A stretch of DNA of 45,019 bases from Halobellus salinus. GTDB taxonomy: Archaea > Halobacteriota > Halobacteria > Halobacteriales > Haloferacaceae. The notes below the pieces were generated by a model, which searched no databases, was not told where the DNA came from, and saw only the letters and a program-made list of their open reading frames with translations. The position numbers and the translations under genes are program-made. The stretch is taken from assembly GCF_014646875.1 (NCBI RefSeq), contig NZ_BMOC01000019.1, positions 1 to 45,019 on the forward strand, given 5' to 3'. Below, piece by piece: positions 2,844 to 29,631 of this stretch (positions are counted from its first letter, which is position 1; each line of letters begins with the position of its first letter).

Positions 2844-3662
2844 ATGACCGATACCAATACCGCACGAATCACGGTGGCGAATCAGAAGGGAGGGGCGGGG
2901 AAGACAACCGACGTCATTCATACTGGCGGCGCACTCGCCGCCCGAGGCCACGACGTCCTCCTGGTCGATATCGACTACCACGGGGGGCTCACCTGCTCGC
3001 TTGGCTACAACGATCTGTACTACGATACCGACCGTACAACACTGTTCGACGTCCTCGACTTCGATCAGATGGAGTCGGTGAAAGACATCATCGTTGAGCA
3101 CGAGGAATTCGACATCCTTCCCGCCAGCGAGAAGCTCGCGAACAACAAGAACATCCAGACGCTGCTTGAGGCGCCGAAGAGTCGCGAGCGGTTGGAGATG
3201 ACTCTCGACGAACTCGAGAAGGACTACGACTACATCATCGTCGACACGCCGCCATCCCTGAACGTCCTCACCGACAACGCCCTGGTCGCGACCGGCAACG
3301 TCGTCATCCCCGTGATTCCCGAGAAGCTCAACGCCAACAGTCTCCAGATTTTCGCAAAGCAGCTGAGCTCTCTCGAACAGGCGTACGGAGACATCAATCG
3401 GCTCGCGATTGTCTGTAACCGCGTCGAGCAGAACGCCGAACACCGCGACACCATCGAGGAAATCAATTCGGCGTACTCTCTCCCCGTGTTCGAGATCCCG
3501 AAGCGGACCGACCTCTCTCAGTCGATTGGCAAGGGGGTGTCCGTCTTCGGCTTCGGCAAGGAGAACCAGAGGGTCGAGGATGCACGCGACCTGTTCAACG
3601 AGATCGCCGATCTGTTCGACGAGACGTTTGAGAAGACCGCACCTGAGGAGGTGAAAGCATGA
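2844..3662 (+). CDS. parA: ParA/Soj-type partition ATPase
   Basis: 272 residues. The deviant Walker A motif KGGAGKTT is at 15-22 with the signature lysine K15. Walker A' is DIDYHGG at 42-48, where the usual DxDPQGN has Y-H in place of P-Q. Walker B is YIIVDTPPS at 130-138. The C-terminal half has the usual IPVIPEKLNANSL stretch. ParA proteins bind DNA non-specifically with ATP and move plasmid copies apart when a centromere-bound partner triggers hydrolysis. Iterons end directly upstream, and the next gene overlaps the stop codon by 4 bases. That gene is the likely partner. Start at 2844 fixed by the family's short N-terminus before Walker A. Confidence 0.9.
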   Translation: MTDTNTARITVANQKGGAGKTTDVIHTGGALAARGHDVLLVDIDYHGGLTCSLGYNDLYYDTDRTTLFDVLDFDQMESVKDIIVEHEEFDILPASEKLANNKNIQTLLEAPKSRERLEMTLDELEKDYDYIIVDTPPSLNVLTDNALVATGNVVIPVIPEKLNANSLQIFAKQLSSLEQAYGDINRLAIVCNRVEQNAEHRDTIEEINSAYSLPVFEIPKRTDLSQSIGKGVSVFGFGKENQRVEDARDLFNEIADLFDETFEKTAPEEVKA

Positions 3663-4066
3663 GCGACGGCTGGGGTGATGCTTCCGGTATCGAGGGCAAC
3701 TACGAAGAGGAGGACGATGAGACAGATTCCGGCGAAACGACTGAGGTGAGTGAAACGGTGGAAACCAGTTCATCGACCGAAACGACCGAATCGACTTCAA
3801 CGAGTGAAACGAACGAAACGAGCAAAACGAAGACGAACATCAAGGACGAGTGGAACGGGCGAACGATCTACATTCCCGACGATGTCCTCGACGAGATGGA
3901 GGATACCTACCTCGAGTCCCAGCTGAAGCTCCGCAAGGCGGGGCAGGACGAGTTCAAGAAGAACCGCCACTTCTACCCGCTACTCGTTCAGTTCGGTGTA
4001 GAAGCGCTCTCTGATGCGGATGCTGAGGAAATTCAGGCTCGGCTATCGGAACTCGGAGACGAATGA
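3659..4066 (+). CDS. Small partner of ParA, candidate centromere-binding protein
   Basis: 135 residues, coupled to parA by an ATGA overlap. Residues 1-25 are acidic. Residues 25-60 are a low-complexity run of tripeptides of the type E-T-x (SGETTEVSETVETSSSTETT and on). Residues 62-135 form a compact domain: GRTIYIPDDVLDEM, a strand followed by a helix as in ribbon-helix-helix proteins, then a lysine-rich helix and LLVQFGVEAL. Position and size fit a ParB-like or RHH centromere-binding protein. I cannot assign it to a named family. The tripeptide run is encoded by the same 9-bp repeat as the DNA upstream of parA. Confidence 0.7.
   Translation: MSDGWGDASGIEGNYEEEDDETDSGETTEVSETVETSSSTETTESTSTSETNETSKTKTNIKDEWNGRTIYIPDDVLDEMEDTYLESQLKLRKAGQDEFKKNRHFYPLLVQFGVEALSDADAEEIQARLSELGDE
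3736..3838 (+). repeat. 9-bp AACGA repeats inside the coding sequence
   Basis: AACGA or one-base variants at 3736, 3754, 3763, 3772, 3781, 3790, 3799, 3808, 3817 and 3826, all in the same 9-base phase. Because 9 is three codons the frame is kept and the repeat codes for E-T-x or S-T-x. The unit and period match the blocks at 2551-2838. It may be a further binding array for the partition protein, or DNA copied from it that was then tolerated as a linker. Confidence 0.7.
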
Positions 4067-4096
4067 CCTCGCGCAGAGCGAGGTCCGGTATTTTGT
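4067..4096 (+). terminator. Hairpin after the par operon
   Basis: CCTCGC (4067-4072) and GCGAGG (4078-4083) form a perfect 6-bp stem with a 5-base loop directly after the stop codon, followed by a T-rich stretch (TATTTTG). A likely transcription end for the parA operon. Confidence 0.5.
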
Positions 4097-4191
4097 ATAG
4101 CGATATACGATATACATTTTCCTTTTGTGCGGAATTTCGGCGCTAAGAGACTCTAAATGCCCGATTTCTCCCGATGGGCCGAATACAATAA

Positions 4192-4223
4192 GTGGTCCTG
4201 ATTATTCTGGTAATCACGACCAC
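4192..4223. other. 32-bp interrupted palindrome, candidate dif/res-like recombination site
   Basis: Two 13-base arms around a 6-base centre: GTGGTC-ct-GATTA, TTCTGG, TAATC-ac-GACCAC. Eleven of the 13 positions pair. Xer/dif sites have two arms of about 11 bases around 6-8 bases and are often beside the recombinase gene. This one lies 116 bp before the tyrosine recombinase start. It could instead be an operator for that gene. The 4099-4191 stretch before it is AT-rich and also has a short repeat pair, GTATA and TATAC, around 4097. Confidence 0.5.
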
Positions 4224-4339
4224 TTTGAAGTACCCCGCCGCCGTCGGTGAAGCACGAATGCTGCAACCGCCTCACGACGGCGCTTCCCCCGGGGTAGAGC
4301 CACCGAGACTGTGCCCGCAGGACGGTGGAGGGCCGGTGG

Positions 4340-15161: not shown

Positions 15162-16271
15162 ATGTCGGTATCCAGAGACAAAGTGGATGTGGATGGTAGC
15201 GTCTTATGGTACTGGTATGAAAATACTCAGGATTATTCTGCGGAACGTACAAGAGAGACATACAAAAAAAGGATTACAACATATGAGAAGTGGCTGGCAG
15301 CCAGAGGTGATTATACTCATGACTGTCATTGGACGGATATTAATGTGGATAATGTCCCCCGTGAGCAGATGAAACTTCCGCGTGATATCGATGAGACCGA
15401 CTCTGAAGCCTTCCTGAATGATATCTCAGATGCGTTCGCGGGGAATACACAGCAAGGGCTCGCTTCCATGCTCAGCCAAGCGTATGAGTGGTTGGCATCC
15501 CAAACAACAAACGTCTCAGACGACCCAATTGGCTATGTCCTCGACGTTGAAGCGAAAGATATTCTCGACAGTGTAGACAGTCGAAATCCACATATCATCC
15601 CGATAGAGGATGTAAGATACTATATCCGGTCTTGGAATGATCCTGGGTGGTCCTGTATAAATCAGATAGCTGCCAAGTACACGAGGCGGGCAGGCGGTAT
15701 AAGTAATCTTGACATCGAGGACCTGAATATCGACCATCCTGCTTGTGACTGGACTGTTCATCCTGAGATTCGGCACTGGGACGATCATATTCTCTTTCGC
15801 CCTGACAAAGCTGCGAGTGATCCGGGGCGCAAGTCCGGTAACAAAACCAGCGCTATCGCAAAATACCCTCTCGATGATGAACTGAAGCAATCACTTCTCT
15901 GGTATCTCGCTTGTCGATTTGAGCCCGAAAGTCCAACTGATCCGCTGTTTTTGGACAGAAGTTATACGCGAATGTCTAGGCATCTGATAGGTACTCGGTT
16001 CAGGGAAAAATCAAAAGAGATCACACAGAAGGACAACGGGCCGAAATGTTGGTACGAACCAGGTGACGATGATAATCTTAATGTCCACTACTGGAGACAC
16101 TGGGCAACGACTTGGTACCAGGATCAGACTGGAGAAGACGCACTAGTTGATTATCTCCGTGGCGACACCGGACAAGGGAGCAAAGCAACCTACGACCAGT
16201 ACAGTAAGGTGAAAAAACAAAAGATCCTCAAAGCGATGCCGAAGTTCTTCGAGCCGTTTATCCATGACTGA
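15162..16271 (+). CDS. Divergent tyrosine integrase
   Basis: 369 residues. The core-binding domain lies at about 25-125 (ERTRETYKKRITTYEKWLAA). The catalytic box I arginine is R175 or R176 in KYTRRAGGISNL. Box II is H309-x-x-R312 in NVHYWRHWATTW, and the nucleophile is a tyrosine in ATYDQYSKV (Y344 or Y347). So the R-H-R-Y set can be seen, but the protein is far from the recombinase at 4340. It is AT-rich until about 16225 and then turns GC-rich over its last codons. That fits an insertion whose right edge lies near the 3' end of this gene. Confidence 0.8.
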   Translation: MSVSRDKVDVDGSVLWYWYENTQDYSAERTRETYKKRITTYEKWLAARGDYTHDCHWTDINVDNVPREQMKLPRDIDETDSEAFLNDISDAFAGNTQQGLASMLSQAYEWLASQTTNVSDDPIGYVLDVEAKDILDSVDSRNPHIIPIEDVRYYIRSWNDPGWSCINQIAAKYTRRAGGISNLDIEDLNIDHPACDWTVHPEIRHWDDHILFRPDKAASDPGRKSGNKTSAIAKYPLDDELKQSLLWYLACRFEPESPTDPLFLDRSYTRMSRHLIGTRFREKSKEITQKDNGPKCWYEPGDDDNLNVHYWRHWATTWYQDQTGEDALVDYLRGDTGQGSKATYDQYSKVKKQKILKAMPKFFEPFIHD

Positions 16272-16929: not shown

Positions 16930-18294
16930 TTAGATGACGCCACCGATGACGAGAAGGACGATGAGGGTCAGCAGCGTCGCGATGACGCCTCCGCCAGCGA
17001 GAATCTTGTTCTCCATCGCCTTCTCGTGGATGGGCATGGCAGCGTACTCTTCGCGGAACGCCTCGAGGTTCTCCTCCTCGTAGAAGTACTTCGTATTCAG
17101 CGCGAACCGCTCGGTGACCGCACAGCCCGTACAGACCGGCTCCTGCTCGAGCCGTTCGGTCTTGGTGTGGCTGTCGCAGGCGATCGCCCCGCAGTTGGGA
17201 CAGTAGGTGTACGTCTCGTCGACGCCACTCGTCCCACAGTGGACGCATCGATGAATGCCGTCCTCCAGAGTGACCCGTGAGGGGCCAGCAGCATAGTATT
17301 CGTACGGATACGAGTACTTCTGTACCTCTGTTGTCTGCCGTACCTCGGGAAGATACACCGGCTCGATCGATTGCACTGAGATGTCCGAGATATTCGGCTC
17401 ACACGTCTTGTTGTAGGTGACGTTGTTGTCGCCGGTGTAGGTCACCGTCGTCGTGTGGTAGTCCTGAAGACGGTCAACAGCCCACTCCTTGTACTCCGTT
17501 TGGGTCTGCCCGAATCGGCGTTCCTCGACGTCGTCGAATACCTCGGTAAACTGCCCGGTATCGAGGGGAATCGTCGCGTGGAAGTTCTCGGTAACCAGCG
17601 TCGCGACATCGTCGTCAGCCACCTTCGGATGGCCGCGCTCAGCGTGGACAACAAACTGTGTGCGGTCGTTGATCCGATGGATAACGCCGACGGAGGTCTC
17701 GAAGATAGCGTTCGTGTCGGCGGTGATCGCAACGACCGGCCGAAACGTTACCTGCGAGTGCGGCACTGGCAGATCCGCAGCCTCAATGTTCTCGATGTCG
17801 TGGAACGCCTCCTGGACGGGTGCGTCGACGTCCGCAGCCGGGTCGTACGGTCGGAGCGTCTCCTCACACAAGATCTCGATGCGGCCGTTGTAGAGATCGA
17901 GACCTATCTCGTCGGCAATCTCTCGGAGAGCCTCACCGTCGATCAGCTCGATGGGATGAGGATCATCGTTCTGCTGGAGCCGATCTGCGTACTCCTCAGC
18001 AGGGTTCGTAAATCGACCAGTGGTGGCGACCATCCCTCGCTTTGGGCCGTCGAAGTCGAACGTCGCGATGGCCGAGTGCAACTTCTGGACGACCGGCCGA
18101 CCAACAGTCCCTGTGTGCTTGCACTCGACGATGATCGCCCGTCGCGTCCCATCGACGACTTCCTCCATGATGACGTCGCGACCTTCATCGGCCGTCCGCT
18201 CGGCCTGGCGGACGTTCTCGTAGCCGAGGTTTCGAAAGACATCCTCCATCAAGTCCTCGAACTCGAATCCAGAGAGGTCGTCCAGTACAGCCAT
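16930..18294 (-). CDS. Mrr-type endonuclease with zinc fingers and a membrane anchor
   Basis: 454 residues. Residues 8-110 are the Mrr nuclease fold: GFEFEDLMEDVFRNLGY, DEGRDVIME with D40, IIVECKH with E57 and K59, then RPVVQKLHSAI and a GMVATTGRFT strand. The middle 220 residues are an unnamed domain. Two CxxC pairs follow (HRCVHCG, YCPNCG, then CTGC), a double zinc ribbon. The last 25 residues are hydrophobic (VIATLLTLIVLLVIGGVI), a C-terminal membrane anchor. A membrane-tied Mrr may cut incoming DNA at the cell edge; this is inference. ATG at 18294 is preferred, with a TATA-like box about 30 bases upstream; 18402 is less likely. Confidence 0.8.
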   Translation of the reverse strand: MAVLDDLSGFEFEDLMEDVFRNLGYENVRQAERTADEGRDVIMEEVVDGTRRAIIVECKHTGTVGRPVVQKLHSAIATFDFDGPKRGMVATTGRFTNPAEEYADRLQQNDDPHPIELIDGEALREIADEIGLDLYNGRIEILCEETLRPYDPAADVDAPVQEAFHDIENIEAADLPVPHSQVTFRPVVAITADTNAIFETSVGVIHRINDRTQFVVHAERGHPKVADDDVATLVTENFHATIPLDTGQFTEVFDDVEERRFGQTQTEYKEWAVDRLQDYHTTTVTYTGDNNVTYNKTCEPNISDISVQSIEPVYLPEVRQTTEVQKYSYPYEYYAAGPSRVTLEDGIHRCVHCGTSGVDETYTYCPNCGAIACDSHTKTERLEQEPVCTGCAVTERFALNTKYFYEEENLEAFREEYAAMPIHEKAMENKILAGGGVIATLLTLIVLLVIGGVI

Positions 18295-18464
18295 ACGGGT
18301 ATAGTTGGACAGTATCTTGCTATAACTAAATACGTTTCCGGCGGTAGCGACGACGTGAGAGCTGTTATTGCTATGCGTCTCGCAAGGGGTGCGGGACGAC
18401 ACATCCGTCCGGGTTACCGATGCTTTCTGAGAGCAACAGCGAAATTGATCCCGACAACTAGTGG

Positions 18465-20782: not shown

Positions 20783-23700
20783 ATGAATGACGACGTCCCG
20801 GAGTCGATAGCCGACATCCAGTCGCTTCACGTCGGGACCTATGAGAGCAACCCGGACCGAATTGAGTCCGACGCCGGGACGGAGCGGCAGGACCGCGCGG
20901 ACTACCAGGGGCGGTTCATCTTCGAACTCCTGCAGAACGCCGTCGACGAGATGGACGAGACGGCGACGCCGGCGGTCAAGATCCGCCTCACCGACGACCG
21001 GCTGCTGGTCGCCAACAACGGTGCTCCATTCTCGATGGGAGACCTCTACGCGCTGACGCTGACGACTCGGACGACGAAAGCCGGGGACACTACGATCGGC
21101 CACAAGGGCCGGGGGTTCACCTCCGTGCTGGGTGTCACCGACAACCCTCGTGTCTTCTCAGAGTCGGTACAGGCTCAGTTCCACCGGGGGCATTCCGCCG
21201 AAACCTTGACCCAGAATCAGGTGATCGCCGACGCGTTCGACGGAGAGGTCGAAGCAGATCAGGTTCCGCTGCTCTCGCTCCCCCACTCGGCAGACCCGTC
21301 CACAGACGTCGAGTCACTCCTTGAAGAGGGATTCACGACCGTGTTCGAACTCCCGCTCCGAGACTCGGCACAGCACCACGGCGCCATCCAGCGGAAGCTC
21401 CAGTCACTGGGCGCCAATACGGTCGCACTCCTGCCGGAGTTGGCACGTATCGACATCGAGTGTCCGACCTGGGAGCGGAGCTGGCGTCTCTCTCGGCAGG
21501 AGTTTCGAGATGCGGAGAACGCGACGCTCATTGAGGTGGGACAGGAGACCGTCGACGGTGGGTCGACATCGGCGACGACCGACTGGTACTGTCTCTTCGA
21601 GCGCACGGAGATCGACAGCGACCGCATCGCCGAGCGAGCGGAGCTCACTGACCCGGAGATCGACGCGATGGGGCAGTTACGCGTCGGGGTGGCGTTTCGC
21701 GCGACGCCCGCGACCAACACGCCAGCGGTCGAGATGAGCGACTGGGCGCTCGATCCCGTCTACGGGGAGTCCCAGGACCGCCCGCCGATGGTTCACGTCT
21801 TCCTCCCCACGAAAGAGCGTAGTCCGATCCCGGCGCTAGTCACAGGGACGTTCCAGTCCGACACGTCACGGCGGAACCTGACGCTTGATCACGACGATGA
21901 ACGGGGCTACGAAGGGCAGTTCAACGGCTACCTCTTCGAGGAGATCGGGACGTTATTTGCCCAGCGAGTACTGTCGTTTGTCAGCGCATCGGCGACCACA
22001 CCCGCGGCGTTTGTCGACGCGCTCGACCCCTCGCTCGGTCAGCAGCGGGAGTGGTCGTTCACCCCCGGCGATGTCGACCACTGCCTCTTCGAGCAGGTGA
22101 ATGCCGCTATCAGCCCGGTCCCGTTCCTACCGAGCGCGTTCGGCGACGATAACGTGAGTATCGACGACGTCCGTCTCCCGCCGACGTCGACCGAGCTCCC
22201 GGCGCTGGGTAAGCAGTTCGTCCAACTCCTTCAGACCGGAACCACCGTCCCGAAGGAGCTGGAGGGGCTCCCCGATGCGACACTGCTGGCTCACCGGAAG
22301 ACACGAGCGCTCGAAGCGTTCGGCGCGAGCCGACTCGACACCGCGTCGATCCCCGAACTTCTCACAGACGCGTCCGTTAATCCCCCGCTCCGGCTGACAA
22401 GCGAGGAGGAGTGGGAAATTTCGGTGCCCGATGATGCCGAGCCGTGTCGGCTCCTGATAGACCCCGTGCTCGAGTATCTTGTCGCCGTGCGGAAACCGCT
22501 CGAGAGTGACGACGATCGCGCCGCGTTCGACGACGCTTGCCGTCGTGCACCGGTGTTGCCGACAGCCGTCGAGTGTGACGACGAAACGACACACGCGCTT
22601 CGGCGCGCCAACCGTGACGGGACCGTGTTTATGCCGCCCGAGAACGACATCGCAGGCGGTGCGCTCCCGGATATCCAATTTCTTGCAAGCGAGCTCTACC
22701 ACGGCAGCGACCCGAACCGGGCCAAGCCGCTCAGGGAGGCGGCACTCCCGGCGGGGTTCGGGTCGGACCTCCGGACCATCTGGAACGTCAAAGAGTACCA
22801 GTTCACCCAAGTGTTCGACGCAGCCATCAGTCCACAGGTACCCGGTCCGAACTCCCCCGAAGCGGACCCATCGACACTCCACCAGCTGGAGACCCTCGGA
22901 ACGATCCGTCGGATGGCGGCGGTCCAGTCGCCCGAGAACGACCGGTCACCCGACGCCCCGCTGCTCTATCAGTCCTCGCGGAAGCCGTTCTCCGCGCTCG
23001 CCGGCCTCCCGGTCCCGACGGTTGGCCCAGACGACTCCGTCGAGTGGGAGCCCGCCCACCGGGTCTACTTCAGTTCAGCGTGGCAGACCGCACTCGGCCG
23101 GCCGGAGGACGCACACGTCGAGGAGCTGCTCCGGACGGTCGACGACGTCACCGACTCAGGCCGGTTCGAACCACGCTTCCTCGCGCCGCCCGAGTGGTTC
23201 GGGCTCGACCCGGCTGAGAGTGAACCTCCAGAACAAGAGCATCTCGCCTGGGCAGCATTCCTGCAGTGGCTCGGTGTCGCCGAGCACATCCGGCCCCTCC
23301 CGCTGTTCGCTCCGGACGCCGGGACCCGGCACCGTTACCGCGAGACACAGGAACTCAGCCGCCCGCCACGGTCGACAATCAGCTCGCACTCGGCGCTCGA
23401 AAACGAGTCACCGCCGGTCGACCACCGCTACCGCGGGTTGACCGAGTCCGAGTGGACAGCCTACCGCGAACAGCTCGCGTCCCAGGTCGACCCGGAGATC
23501 CCCGACAGTAGTCAACAGTATCTTTCCCAGGTCAACGCCTTAGAGTACGCCGACGAGCTGACGAGTGCGGCACGCGAGGAGTCAGCAGTCGGCGTTCAGC
23601 TCCTGCGCCATCTGGTGTGCTGGTGGGACAGCGGACTTTCAGCCCACCGCCACGCCGAGGTGGCGGCGTTCACCAACAAACAGTGGCGTGGGAGCAACCT

Positions 23701-25789
23701 CAGCTACTTCTTCACCACGGACGAGCGCGAGCGCCTGGGACAGAACCTCTGGGTTTGGCAGCTCCGGCAGGCAGCGTGGGTTCCGACGACGTTCGGTGCG
23801 GTCCGGCCGCCCGACGCCTGGCGGCTCCCCGACGCCGACGAGGAGCGGTTCAGCCTCGATGTCTCGGGGGAGCGCCCGTTGCTCCCGTTCGTCACGGCGG
23901 GGTTCCCGGCCAGGGAGACGGACGAACCCGAGGCAGTCTCGACGCTCGCCGAGGCGCTGGGAATCGGCCGGCGCCTCAATCAGGAGTCGTTCTCGCCACG
24001 GGATGCCTACCATGCAGTCAACCGTATCGGGGAGCTGATCGAAATCTCCGAAGACCCCGCCCAGTTTGCCAGCAGCGTCGAGCTGCTGTACACGCGTATT
24101 GCGGAGCTGCTCCCCGGGCTGGAACAGGGTGAGCCACTTCTGGAGGAGTGGCGCCCAGAAAACACGGGGCTTGGGGATGTCGACCTGCTCTGTCGGGTCG
24201 GCCAAGAGTACGAACTCGTCCCCGCGAGTGAGGCGTACTATGTCCGGTCCCGAAGCAGCCGTGACCGGCACGCGAACCTCGGTGTCCCCATTCTGGCGCT
24301 GTTCAAGCCAGAGGCGGCGAGCTTCGGCAGCTACTGTGGGGCAAGGGACCTGCGAACAGCCGTCCGAAGGGAGCCGGCGTACGAGGACTGTCCACCGCTC
24401 CCCCTCTCGCTGGGTGGCACCGACATCGACCAAGAATGGCTGGAGACGTTGCTCGCTGCGCTCCTGCTCCGGCTCCGGACGAACCGGCAGTCGGCGTTCC
24501 TTGTTGACCAAGACCGCAGCGCCACCCGGACGTTCTATGAGCAACTGACTTTCGTTGAGAACCTCGATCTCCGGATCTCGCTGGCCGACGGAAGCTGGGA
24601 TGAAACCCGGCCGCCGGAACCACAGCCGTACCACCTCGAGCGGGATGGAGACCGAATCGTCCGGGTACTGGTCGACCGGACGCTGGACCGCGGGGCGCTC
24701 GTCGACGCTCTGACCGGTGCGTACACGGAACGGCTCGATGTTCCCCAGTACTACGAGGCAGTAAACACGCTGGTCGACCACGCACTAGGTGAGCCAGATC
24801 CCGGAACGACCCTCGAAAATCGCTTGAGAACCGTGGGAAGCGATGTCCCGCCGGGACAAGTCGAAGCGACCCGAAGAGAGCTGTTTGCGGAAGAACGGGA
24901 CGAGCCAGATATTGAGGAGGAGGAGCCGGAACCTGTCGCCCCTGAGCCGTACATGGCCGACGATACCGAGATTAACCGTCAATCGGAACACGAACCAACG
25001 GAGCGGGCCGTGAGCACGGAAACTAACGGCACTGCCCACTCCGCGCAGGTGCCGGATATCGACTCGGTGACGAGCATCGGTGACCGGCAGATAGCGGAGT
25101 CGTTGCTTGAAGCCGCTCCCGCGAACCGTTCGTCTACCGACTCCTCAGGGGAACAGGCACGGACGAACGGGGGAGGTGGTGGCGGAGGGGCCGGCCACGG
25201 GACATCACAGGAGTACCGGACCGAAATCGATGCGTTTGGGATGGAGCTGACAATAAAAGCCGAACGAGAGCGGCTCCGTGAGGCGGGCGAAGCCACTCCC
25301 GATGAGCAGGTGTTTGACGTTCACACGCCCGAAATCTACAATCAGATGCGGGAGGAACACCCGTCGCTTGACGATGCCATCGAACGGTTCGGGGACGAAC
25401 GAAGACTTTCCAGTACGGAGAACCCACTGAACAGAGGATTCCCTGGGTTCGACGTCCTCACGATCCGCAAGGATGCCGACGGACGAGCGATTATTGACCG
25501 CTGTATCGAGCTCAAGACATCTGGCGTGAACACACGCAAACCCTCCCTCTCGTGGAACGAGTGGAAGGCCGCCGGAGGTCCACTAAGTGAGTTCTACTAC
25601 CTCTACGTCGCCCGGAACATCAGAACCGGCAACAGCGGCGACGCGGAGCTCCTCGAGATTCCCCGCCCCTTCGAACGGCTCCGGAACCGGACCCAGGAGA
25701 AGCGAGAGCGGAACGTCCAGGTCGACCTGCGGAGCTTCGACTTCGACGCGGACACGATCATCCGGCAGCCCATCGAGTGGGAAGAGTGA
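20783..25789 (+). CDS. Giant sacsin-type GHKL ATPase fused to a PD-(D/E)XK nuclease (DUF3883-like)
   Basis: 1,668 residues. The N-terminal HSP90/GHKL ATPase has the N box FELLQNAVDEMDE (47-59), a G1-like box VANNGAPF (76-83) and the glycine lid IGHKGRGFTSVLGV (105-118). About 1,300 residues without a known family follow. Then comes an acidic region, a glycine run near 1460, and a C-terminal DUF3883-like nuclease: GFPGFDVLTI with D1557, RCIELKTSG with E1576 and K1578. So there is an ATP-driven conformational switch at one end and a nuclease at the other. Sacsin-like plus DUF3883 proteins occur among suspected anti-phage genes; a one-gene defence system is my inference. Uniform GC-rich codon use; no frameshift. 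Palindrome copy A lies 97 bp upstream. Confidence 0.8.
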   Translation: MNDDVPESIADIQSLHVGTYESNPDRIESDAGTERQDRADYQGRFIFELLQNAVDEMDETATPAVKIRLTDDRLLVANNGAPFSMGDLYALTLTTRTTKAGDTTIGHKGRGFTSVLGVTDNPRVFSESVQAQFHRGHSAETLTQNQVIADAFDGEVEADQVPLLSLPHSADPSTDVESLLEEGFTTVFELPLRDSAQHHGAIQRKLQSLGANTVALLPELARIDIECPTWERSWRLSRQEFRDAENATLIEVGQETVDGGSTSATTDWYCLFERTEIDSDRIAERAELTDPEIDAMGQLRVGVAFRATPATNTPAVEMSDWALDPVYGESQDRPPMVHVFLPTKERSPIPALVTGTFQSDTSRRNLTLDHDDERGYEGQFNGYLFEEIGTLFAQRVLSFVSASATTPAAFVDALDPSLGQQREWSFTPGDVDHCLFEQVNAAISPVPFLPSAFGDDNVSIDDVRLPPTSTELPALGKQFVQLLQTGTTVPKELEGLPDATLLAHRKTRALEAFGASRLDTASIPELLTDASVNPPLRLTSEEEWEISVPDDAEPCRLLIDPVLEYLVAVRKPLESDDDRAAFDDACRRAPVLPTAVECDDETTHALRRANRDGTVFMPPENDIAGGALPDIQFLASELYHGSDPNRAKPLREAALPAGFGSDLRTIWNVKEYQFTQVFDAAISPQVPGPNSPEADPSTLHQLETLGTIRRMAAVQSPENDRSPDAPLLYQSSRKPFSALAGLPVPTVGPDDSVEWEPAHRVYFSSAWQTALGRPEDAHVEELLRTVDDVTDSGRFEPRFLAPPEWFGLDPAESEPPEQEHLAWAAFLQWLGVAEHIRPLPLFAPDAGTRHRYRETQELSRPPRSTISSHSALENESPPVDHRYRGLTESEWTAYREQLASQVDPEIPDSSQQYLSQVNALEYADELTSAAREESAVGVQLLRHLVCWWDSGLSAHRHAEVAAFTNKQWRGSNLSYFFTTDERERLGQNLWVWQLRQAAWVPTTFGAVRPPDAWRLPDADEERFSLDVSGERPLLPFVTAGFPARETDEPEAVSTLAEALGIGRRLNQESFSPRDAYHAVNRIGELIEISEDPAQFASSVELLYTRIAELLPGLEQGEPLLEEWRPENTGLGDVDLLCRVGQEYELVPASEAYYVRSRSSRDRHANLGVPILALFKPEAASFGSYCGARDLRTAVRREPAYEDCPPLPLSLGGTDIDQEWLETLLAALLLRLRTNRQSAFLVDQDRSATRTFYEQLTFVENLDLRISLADGSWDETRPPEPQPYHLERDGDRIVRVLVDRTLDRGALVDALTGAYTERLDVPQYYEAVNTLVDHALGEPDPGTTLENRLRTVGSDVPPGQVEATRRELFAEERDEPDIEEEEPEPVAPEPYMADDTEINRQSEHEPTERAVSTETNGTAHSAQVPDIDSVTSIGDRQIAESLLEAAPANRSSTDSSGEQARTNGGGGGGGAGHGTSQEYRTEIDAFGMELTIKAERERLREAGEATPDEQVFDVHTPEIYNQMREEHPSLDDAIERFGDERRLSSTENPLNRGFPGFDVLTIRKDADGRAIIDRCIELKTSGVNTRKPSLSWNEWKAAGGPLSEFYYLYVARNIRTGNSGDAELLEIPRPFERLRNRTQEKRERNVQVDLRSFDFDADTIIRQPIEWEE

Positions 25790-28350: not shown

Positions 28351-29631
28351 CTAAGCCAAGTCTTCCAGCCGGCTGTCCCGGAGGACAGATTTCAACACGA
28401 TACCGGTGTCCTGAACCAGCCGATGCTCGAGGTAGCTGCCTTCACCCCGGCCACCACCGGTCCGAGTTGATTCGACGACACCGAGGAACGCCTGCTCTTT
28501 CAACAGCTCATAGACGCGGTGCTCGCTGAGAGTCTTCGCATCAGCTTTCTCGGTCGTCGCTTCATATCGTTCGTAAATTCGGTTGGTCGAAAACCCGTCC
28601 TCATTCGGATTCTCCTCGGTGAGCAGCGCGAGAGAATACAGGATGAATTTGACCTGGGTCGTCGAGCCACGGAGTAGCTCCTCGAAGCGATCAATTTCAG
28701 CCCACTCCTGGGCATCGCGAACGTGTTCCTCGACGACTGTATCGACATTTTCTCGCTCGGCTAGCTCGCCGGCGTGACGAAGAATCTCGATTGCCTTTCT
28801 GGCATCACCGTGTTCTTGCGCCGCTAGTGCCGCCGTCAGCGGGATCACATCATCCGAGAGAACACCATCGTGGAACGCGTCCCGTCGGTGCTTCATAATC
28901 TCGCGCAGCTGATTTGCGTCGTAGGGTTGGAAAACGAACTCTTCCTCGCGAAGACTGGACTTGACGCGTTCGTTCAGCTGGTCGCGATACTCGATCTTGT
29001 TGCTGACTGCGATGACGCCCAGGTGGCAATCTGCTTTCCCCGATTCGCGTGCCCGCGACAGCTGCATCAATATATCATCATCATCGAGTCGGTCCACCTC
29101 GTCGAGAATGATGATGACTGACTCGTAGGCAGTATCCAGAATCTCCCAGAGATAGTCGTAGTATTCACCGCTCCCGATCCCGGCGCGTGGAATATCGAAG
29201 TCAGTCTCGTCCGTCTCGTTGAGAGACCGAGTTACCGTCCTGGCAACACGCGTCTGTGTATTGTGCTGCGCGCAGTCGACGTAGACCGTGCCCACGGACA
29301 CACCGTTCGACTCCGCGGCTCGTCGGGCTCGTTCGGTGACGTGACGGGCGACTAGTGACTTTCCCGTACCCGTTTTGCCGTAAATAATCACGTTATTCGG
29401 TGGATCACCACGAACGATCGGCCTGAGCTCAGCGGCAACGGCCTTGATCTCGCCATCTCGGCCGACGATACGCCCGCTTTCAGGAACGTGACCCACCTTC
29501 AGCAGTTCCTTTCGAGCGAAAATGTTGGCTCGGTCGGGGTCGTCTTCATCAAAGTCGAAGAGGGGATCGTCAGCGGGGTCCTCGTAGCGGCCGTCGAAGT
29601 CAGAAAGTTGGGACGGTTCCTCAGCCATCAA
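28351..29631 (-). CDS. orc1: Orc1/Cdc6 replication initiator
   Basis: 426 residues. AAA+ ATPase with Walker A GKTGTGKS at 85-92, Walker B IIILDEVDRL at 173-182, a sensor-1 GVIAVSNKIEYRD strand, and the sensor-2/arginine region GDARKAIEILRHAG. The C-terminal winged helix (about 325-426) would bind ORB repeats. ATG codons at 29631 and 29628 are both usable. Its promoter side faces an array of ORB-like repeats (29803-30752), the usual arrangement of an archaeal origin. This is most likely the initiator of this replicon. Confidence 0.92.
   Translation of the reverse strand: MMAEEPSQLSDFDGRYEDPADDPLFDFDEDDPDRANIFARKELLKVGHVPESGRIVGRDGEIKAVAAELRPIVRGDPPNNVIIYGKTGTGKSLVARHVTERARRAAESNGVSVGTVYVDCAQHNTQTRVARTVTRSLNETDETDFDIPRAGIGSGEYYDYLWEILDTAYESVIIILDEVDRLDDDDILMQLSRARESGKADCHLGVIAVSNKIEYRDQLNERVKSSLREEEFVFQPYDANQLREIMKHRRDAFHDGVLSDDVIPLTAALAAQEHGDARKAIEILRHAGELAERENVDTVVEEHVRDAQEWAEIDRFEELLRGSTTQVKFILYSLALLTEENPNEDGFSTNRIYERYEATTEKADAKTLSEHRVYELLKEQAFLGVVESTRTGGGRGEGSYLEHRLVQDTGIVLKSVLRDSRLEDLA

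Follow-up and report, generated by a model that had tools for sequence, protein, structure and literature searches.

Low-copy plasmids such as P1 (Cre/loxP) and F (ResD/rfsF) carry a tyrosine recombinase gene beside a palindromic site, together with partition genes. Excerpts of one account state that Cre keeps P1 monomeric (PMC2409434). For the plasmid sites used by XerCD (xrs, such as cer and psi), parts of another account describe the inner arm bases as the most conserved palindrome, one arm as better conserved, the 6-8 bp centre as not conserved, and about 200 bp of accessory sequence as needed by the ColE1 and pSC101 sites (PMC11724359). The archaeal dif site is presented, in extracts from two papers, as a 28-bp element of 11-6-11 layout that occurs once per chromosome and is unlinked to the gene for XerA (PMC2958812, PMC8371274). 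An extract from the latter paper also describes the SNJ2 integrase, which integrates the virus at a short target at a tRNA end (PMC8371274). In extracts from a 2020 review of replication in Haloferax volcanii, XerC/D-like genes are many, dif sites are only possible and the role of the enzymes is undetermined (PMC7776575). No description of the site reported below was found for haloarchaea in the open-licence literature; a prior description elsewhere is possible.

The DNA analysed here, referred to as the window, is a stretch of 45,019 nucleotides from Halobellus salinus. A preliminary description of this DNA had placed a 32-bp palindrome of 13-6-13 layout at positions 4192-4223. The sequence GTGGTCCTGATTATTCTGGTAATCACGACCAC was located exactly there as the single match in the window allowing up to three mismatches, and none of 100 dinucleotide shuffles contained a match. 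At the same tolerance the palindrome was single-copy in the whole genome (54 contigs). The 6-nt centre was as described and the arms turned out longer, the full palindrome being 15-6-15 with 15-nt arms that are 93% complementary (Table 1). Since the same block recurs beside relatives of the neighbouring recombinase, the element lies far beyond chance. The distance of about 116 bp given for the recombinase downstream agrees with our count when the gene is taken to start from ATG 4340. This start is most likely, rather than GTG 4325, because a stop codon follows four codons past the GTG-equivalent in two relatives and because one plasmid annotation begins at the ATG-equivalent. The partition operon was also correctly described as adjoining, with ParA and a small second open reading frame upstream.

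Table 1. Coordinates of the palindrome, its flanking regions and the neighbouring genes in the window.
Feature	Position	Strand	Remarks
ParA-family ATPase, left partition module type P1	2844..3662	+	Pfam AAA_31
Small protein in operon with parA	3659..4066	+	Without Pfam match; presumed centromere-binding partner of ParA
Left accessory region	4085..4189	.	Left edge approximate, where insertion sequences or partition modules abut in relatives
Left accessory motif GTATAGCGATATACGATATACA	4095..4116	+	95 bp left of the palindrome
Core palindrome	4190..4225	.	Left arm 4190-4204, centre 4205-4210 (TTCTGG), right arm 4211-4225; presumed recombinase binding and strand-exchange site
Right accessory/leader region, non-coding	4226..4324	+	First 62 bp conserved even with cargo genes intervening
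Tyrosine recombinase, 410 aa	4340..5572	+	Pfam, catalytic residues, alignment, profile match

The enzyme belongs to the tyrosine recombinase superfamily, having the R-K-H-R-Y residues and a SAM-like N-terminal domain (PF13102, above the cut-off and the only domain that Pfam sees). Residues R205, K238, H353, R356 and Y387, presumed to be catalytic from the alignment with XerA, were invariant in 37 sequences (the window and 36 of the 79 usable proteins), and N378 occupies the usual H/W position. When PDB was searched with the single sequence, no match was obtained, while a 30-sequence family profile matched XerA (E=7.6e-6) and XerD (E=1e-4). The recombinase alignment contained the window and 29 of the 35 references, excluding L114 and L117 (4 codons each) as well as L122, L126, L128 and L075. 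Against the XerA equivalog model NF040815 the enzyme scored 17.9 bits, the cut-off being 220, and its AlphaFold model (pLDDT 53.8) was too poor for confirming the fold. The gene at 15162-16271 (plus strand) may encode another integrase, its SAM-like match being weak. In five genomes of family f4, chromosome-sized contigs encode recombinase relatives (L154-L158) that are devoid of the C-terminal H, R and Y motifs; judging from these motifs they look catalytically dead, though recurrent.

Repeats of AACGAA/AACGAAC, candidates for a centromere or iterons, are abundant just upstream of parA (2549-2850) and in the small partner gene (3760-3840). Farther away in the window, a gene for an Mrr-type restriction endonuclease (16930-18402) lies near that for a 1668-aa protein (20783-25789) with a Sacsin-like domain below the cut-off, and the two are possible defence genes.

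The wider occurrence of the site was determined by several searches. BLAST with the site plus the recombinase gave 142 plasmid records, of which 84 cover at least 80% of the query in one place, and the closest plasmid matches of the window were haloarchaeal. The set of loci for comparison consisted, besides our own (L001, omitted from counts), of 6 plasmid records and 80 genome loci, the latter being the best 80 of 182 relatives. As a check of its claim, the preliminary description had proposed a search for the same element near orthologous recombinases. In this set, with the window included, 85 of the 87 sequences carried the site upstream of the recombinase. At L081, without a site, the contig ends roughly where the site is expected, and L076 has the recombinase and no recognised site, as has L142, one of the further loci described below. 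Four family-wide searches (170, 146, 125 and 26 genomes) located a total of 219 sites, mostly on secondary contigs, in 154 of the 467 haloarchaeal genomes. Exactly one site was found on 197 of 207 contigs, draft-genome contigs standing in for replicons. The viral contig collection contained no relative of the recombinase, and a phage search with the 256-bp unit gave no match.

Among these loci, which are partly non-independent and in which sites were chosen by a 20-of-28 arm score that favours similar arms, the sequence TGATTA-N6-TAATCA was invariant in all 70 distinct 36-mers, the right arm being almost constant and the outer left arm variable, with a conserved half-site of about 12 bp. Changes in the outer left arm are uncompensated in the right arm, and arm pairing equals the prediction from column make-up. 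Therefore the symmetry looks like that of two protein half-sites, not of an RNA stem. An RNA hairpin was rejected on this pairing and on the lack of a match in Rfam.

A total of 55 different centres were identified among the 219 sites, mostly of the pattern Y-N-C-Y-R-R as read in the direction of the recombinase. None is self-complementary, and therefore the site has a direction. Coresident plasmids showed no significant tendency to avoid equal centres, a centre being shared in 2 of 78 pairs against 4.1 expected (P=0.22); for pairs on different contigs, the figures were 2 of 78 against 4.0 (P=0.23). The same-contig statistic, with an equal centre in 7 of 14 pairs, was withdrawn as evidence, five of the seven coming from contigs with a second copy. 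In four of them (G425, G451, G513 and G294) the copies are near-identical across the whole compared 11-12 kb, and in G170 the two sites sit at the two ends of the contig; all five look like untrimmed circular overlap or duplication. The other two equal-centre pairs are a 10.8-kb duplication in G496 and the case of G447, described below.

Beside the close relatives of the recombinase, the palindrome forms the core of a conserved unit of about 220 bp. The 62 bp to its right showed a mean identity to the window of 0.97 at loci without cargo genes (n=37) and 0.91 at those with cargo (n=47). To its left, GTATAGC with at most one mismatch was detected at 78 of the 80 loci with enough sequence, compared with 0 of 77 in a control window. 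An exact search for the left motif in 382 genomes, in which the pattern allowed spacings of -70 to -100 only and the matches overlap with the locus set, gave 119 matches in 92 genomes. The motif was located at -93 to -97 in 84 of these, at -84 to -86 in 34 and at -75 in one, probably by chance, with none at -87 to -92. The two spacings, which include 118 of the 119 matches, are 11 bp or about one DNA helical turn apart, as expected if a bound protein has to face the core; two old lineages separated by one indel would look similar.

The fixed left motif also bears on two other interpretations of the site. If the palindrome were the left end of a Tn916-like element, with the variable 6 bp as coupling sequence and the left arm as target DNA, a nearly constant right arm next to a variable left arm and centre would be accounted for. 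We rejected this interpretation as hardly credible, because the left side has its own motif: GTATAGC keeps its spacing in the 78 of 80 loci, so the left side is not random target. In addition, TGATTA is invariant on the left too, and no second end was found in loci of up to 11 kb. The left motif is, on the other hand, TATA-like, and the site and leader remain at the head of the operon despite cargo insertion, both of which would suit an operator or a 5'-leader hairpin of the recombinase operon with the left motif as promoter. As the sole function this is very improbable, given that outer-arm pairing is no higher than column make-up, that Rfam gave no match, and that the homology breakpoints, cointegrate junctions and left-left junction described below fall inside the palindrome. 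A promoter could nevertheless function there in addition to recombination.

The distances between site and recombinase are discrete, about 100 bp or about 1.2, 1.5, 2.1, 2.9 kb and more, because cargo genes sit between the leader and the recombinase. The cargo consists of gene pairs, alone or in combinations (as in L003, 3296-4336, and L004, 3218-4278). One pair encodes a DUF7342 winged-helix protein and an unknown protein; the other encodes a TrmB/DUF7437 protein and a protein without Pfam match that appears PIN-like by eye. These pairs could be helpers or addiction genes. On the left, the unit is adjoined by a ParA pair like that of the window, by a diverged ParA, or by insertion sequences, of which the right end stops at nearly one position. 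Insertion sequences of two DDE transposase families end there in one orientation, about 105-125 bp left of the palindrome (L006, L009, L003 and others). One of the two families is ISH3-like, below the NCBIfam cut-off, and one family also adjoins diverged recombinase families (L133, L135, L136 and L143). These elements behave like res-site hunters.

More distant relatives were taken from a recombinase search of 59 genomes and 20 extra stretches. At 46-54% identity, seven of eight recombinases (L132, L133, L134, L135, L136, L137 and L145) had their own upstream palindromes, in which different arms enclose a 6-bp centre with TTA...TAA edges, the arm pairing reaching 15/15. The eighth locus (L146), with a partial gene, showed no palindrome. 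In dinucleotide-shuffled segments, picked after the palindrome had been seen, scores as high were obtained in 0 of 200 shuffles for L132, L133, L136 and L145, in 1 for L134, in 2 for L137 and in 3 for L135. The recombinase of L144 (63% identity) is preceded, 143 bp upstream, by GTGTGATTA-N10-TAATCACAC, with the same inner bases and a 10-bp gap; for a 6-bp gap, its best score was equalled in 60 of 200 shuffles. At 83% identity, L143 has the site (3 of 200 shuffles) and L142 does not. Among 14 loci at 33-43% identity, no such site was detected within about 5 kb. A motif similar to GTATAGC, with 0-2 mismatches, was located at -84 to -95 in five of the seven distant loci (L132, L135, L136, L137 and L145) and at -114 in L133, none being clear in L134. 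The right leader is recognisable in these relatives, best in L135-L137. The compared sequences thus indicate that the arms change along with the recombinase and that the accessory elements stay.

The AT-rich left motif and the palindrome adjoin parA, a position that would suit a partition centromere or an origin of plasmid replication. Such a role is most improbable, however, in view of three observations: the site stays while the left partition modules differ in type, its arms co-diverge with the recombinase, and the Orc1/Cdc6 gene is 24 kb distant. The latter gene, for an initiator, is located at 28351-29631 on the minus strand.

Traces of past recombination were sought by an all-against-all comparison of homology (identity of 96% or more across 700 bp or more, in register; L012 was dropped, being the same plasmid as L014). 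Of the 61 left ends of homology, 40 were located at -20 to +21 of the palindrome and 14 at -125 to -90, close to the limit of the left region; the other 7 lay elsewhere. The 40 breakpoints in the palindrome form six groups and are non-independent, most pairs coming from a single 11-member group, in which plasmids or contigs of different genera have nearly identical right sides. For the right ends, 14 of 18 were at +69 to +126, roughly where the leader ends.

Plasmid unnamed3 of Halorientalis marina GDY88 (G447:C4, 558,567 bp) carries three sites about 113.25 kb apart. The right side of the first site is the same as that of the second, the left side of the second is the same as that of the third, and the switch of sequence falls within the palindrome. 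The intervals, for which samples and site flanks were compared, were 100% identical over two 3-kb samples (BLAST). The simplest reading of these sequences is that a larger plasmid received, at its site, two tandem insertions of a 113-kb plasmid. Four of the six positions differ between the centres, CTCTGA and CCTGAA, each of which was kept with its left side; identity of the centre was therefore not required, or was repaired. At G018:C22, one centre joins two facing left halves that belong to different families, and there is no recombinase. A right-right partner of this junction was not found, and misassembly of the draft is possible. The natural junctions display fusion and module exchange, not resolution.

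The cointegrate in G447:C4 could also be the product of an integration module, in which the recombinase is an integrase, the palindrome is its attP/attB and plasmids are chiefly inserted into other plasmids or chromosomes. The presence of some sites on chromosome-sized contigs (e.g., G105:C1 and G172:C1) and of plasmids across genera with a common right side and different left sides would agree with such a module. We consider it unlikely as the main role, because 197 of 207 contigs have a single site instead of an attL/attR pair, and because the site lies beside parA in several module types. In addition, no tRNA target was noticed in unsystematic inspection.

Taken together, the locus is best explained, with good probability, as a self-encoded system of site-specific recombination of circular haloarchaeal plasmids, probably used for multimer resolution every day and for fusion or module exchange on occasion. 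The architecture, the conservation, the co-divergence with the recombinase and the natural junctions inside the palindrome make recombination at the site well supported, and crossover by the adjacent recombinase very probably takes place in the palindrome. Presence beside orthologues and natural breaks inside the palindrome thus strongly support the earlier proposal of a recombination site for the neighbouring tyrosine recombinase. The adjacent enzyme would be the catalyst, and the conserved left motif and right leader may be bound by accessory proteins. Multimer resolution would be the likeliest everyday role, because there is mostly one site per contig, parA lies beside it in several types and the enzyme is self-encoded.

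In the proposed mechanism, the adjacent tyrosine recombinase would bind both arms, with a half-site of about TGGTCnTGATTA, and would exchange strands where the arms meet the 6-bp centre. A host or plasmid protein could use the left motif and right leader as accessory sequences for assembling a synaptic complex, one that favours a pair of sites within the same molecule, as in cer/psi. Day to day, the reaction would turn plasmid multimers into monomers beside the partition genes, and rare intermolecular reactions would fuse plasmids and swap modules. More tentatively, the 6-bp centre might be the identity tag of a replicon in a lox-like system, a possibility that we regard as doubtful. Resolution would then be confined to one plasmid lineage, rare cross- or matched-centre reactions would fuse plasmids of different genera and swap partition or cargo modules, and directionality would come from a helically phased accessory complex that recombinase subfamilies with differing arms have in common. 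The locus provides a concrete pair of recombinase and site that is widespread in haloarchaea and for which half-sites, crossover position and accessory motif are predicted, so that resolution and plasmid fusion in haloarchaea become directly testable. Such a pair would also explain why long near-identical segments, beginning precisely at one palindrome, are common to plasmids from different genera.

Compared with the systems described so far, the present enzyme is, like the SNJ2 integrase, a haloarchaeal tyrosine recombinase, and the small helper genes of the SNJ2 operon, as far as the extracts describe them, resemble in layout the cargo genes of some relatives. Unlike SNJ2, it has no relative in the viral contig collection. 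The designation as Xer/dif-like holds for the 6-bp spacer between inverted repeats, as given for archaeal dif in the extracts; it does not extend to the longer arms (15-6-15, not 11-6-11), to the enzyme, which is far below the XerA equivalog cut-off, or to the unit of about 220 bp with accessory sequence on both sides. The site is also linked to its recombinase and mostly on secondary contigs. We therefore do not assign it to dif/XerA, from which it departs in three defining features: the equivalog, the 11-6-11 layout and the unlinked single chromosomal site.

As in Cre/loxP and ResD/rfsF, the recombinase adjoins a palindromic site on a plasmid with partition genes, and adjacency of the two and one site per replicon, with the 197 of 207 contigs as a proxy, bring the locus close to that class. 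In contrast to these two, the site has 15-6-15 arms, conserved flanks on both sides and a hypervariable centre, and the system is archaeal with a recombinase only distantly Xer-like. With cer and psi, on the partial account cited above, it has in common a conserved inner palindrome, a variable 6-bp centre and one better-conserved arm. The arm sequences are different, and the recombinase is self-encoded and adjacent; instead of depending on host XerCD, the site co-occurs and co-diverges with this plasmid-borne enzyme, in addition to which a host enzyme could act. The haloarchaeal site also has a conserved, helically spaced left motif and a conserved right leader, which may correspond to the protein-bound accessory sequences of cer and psi.
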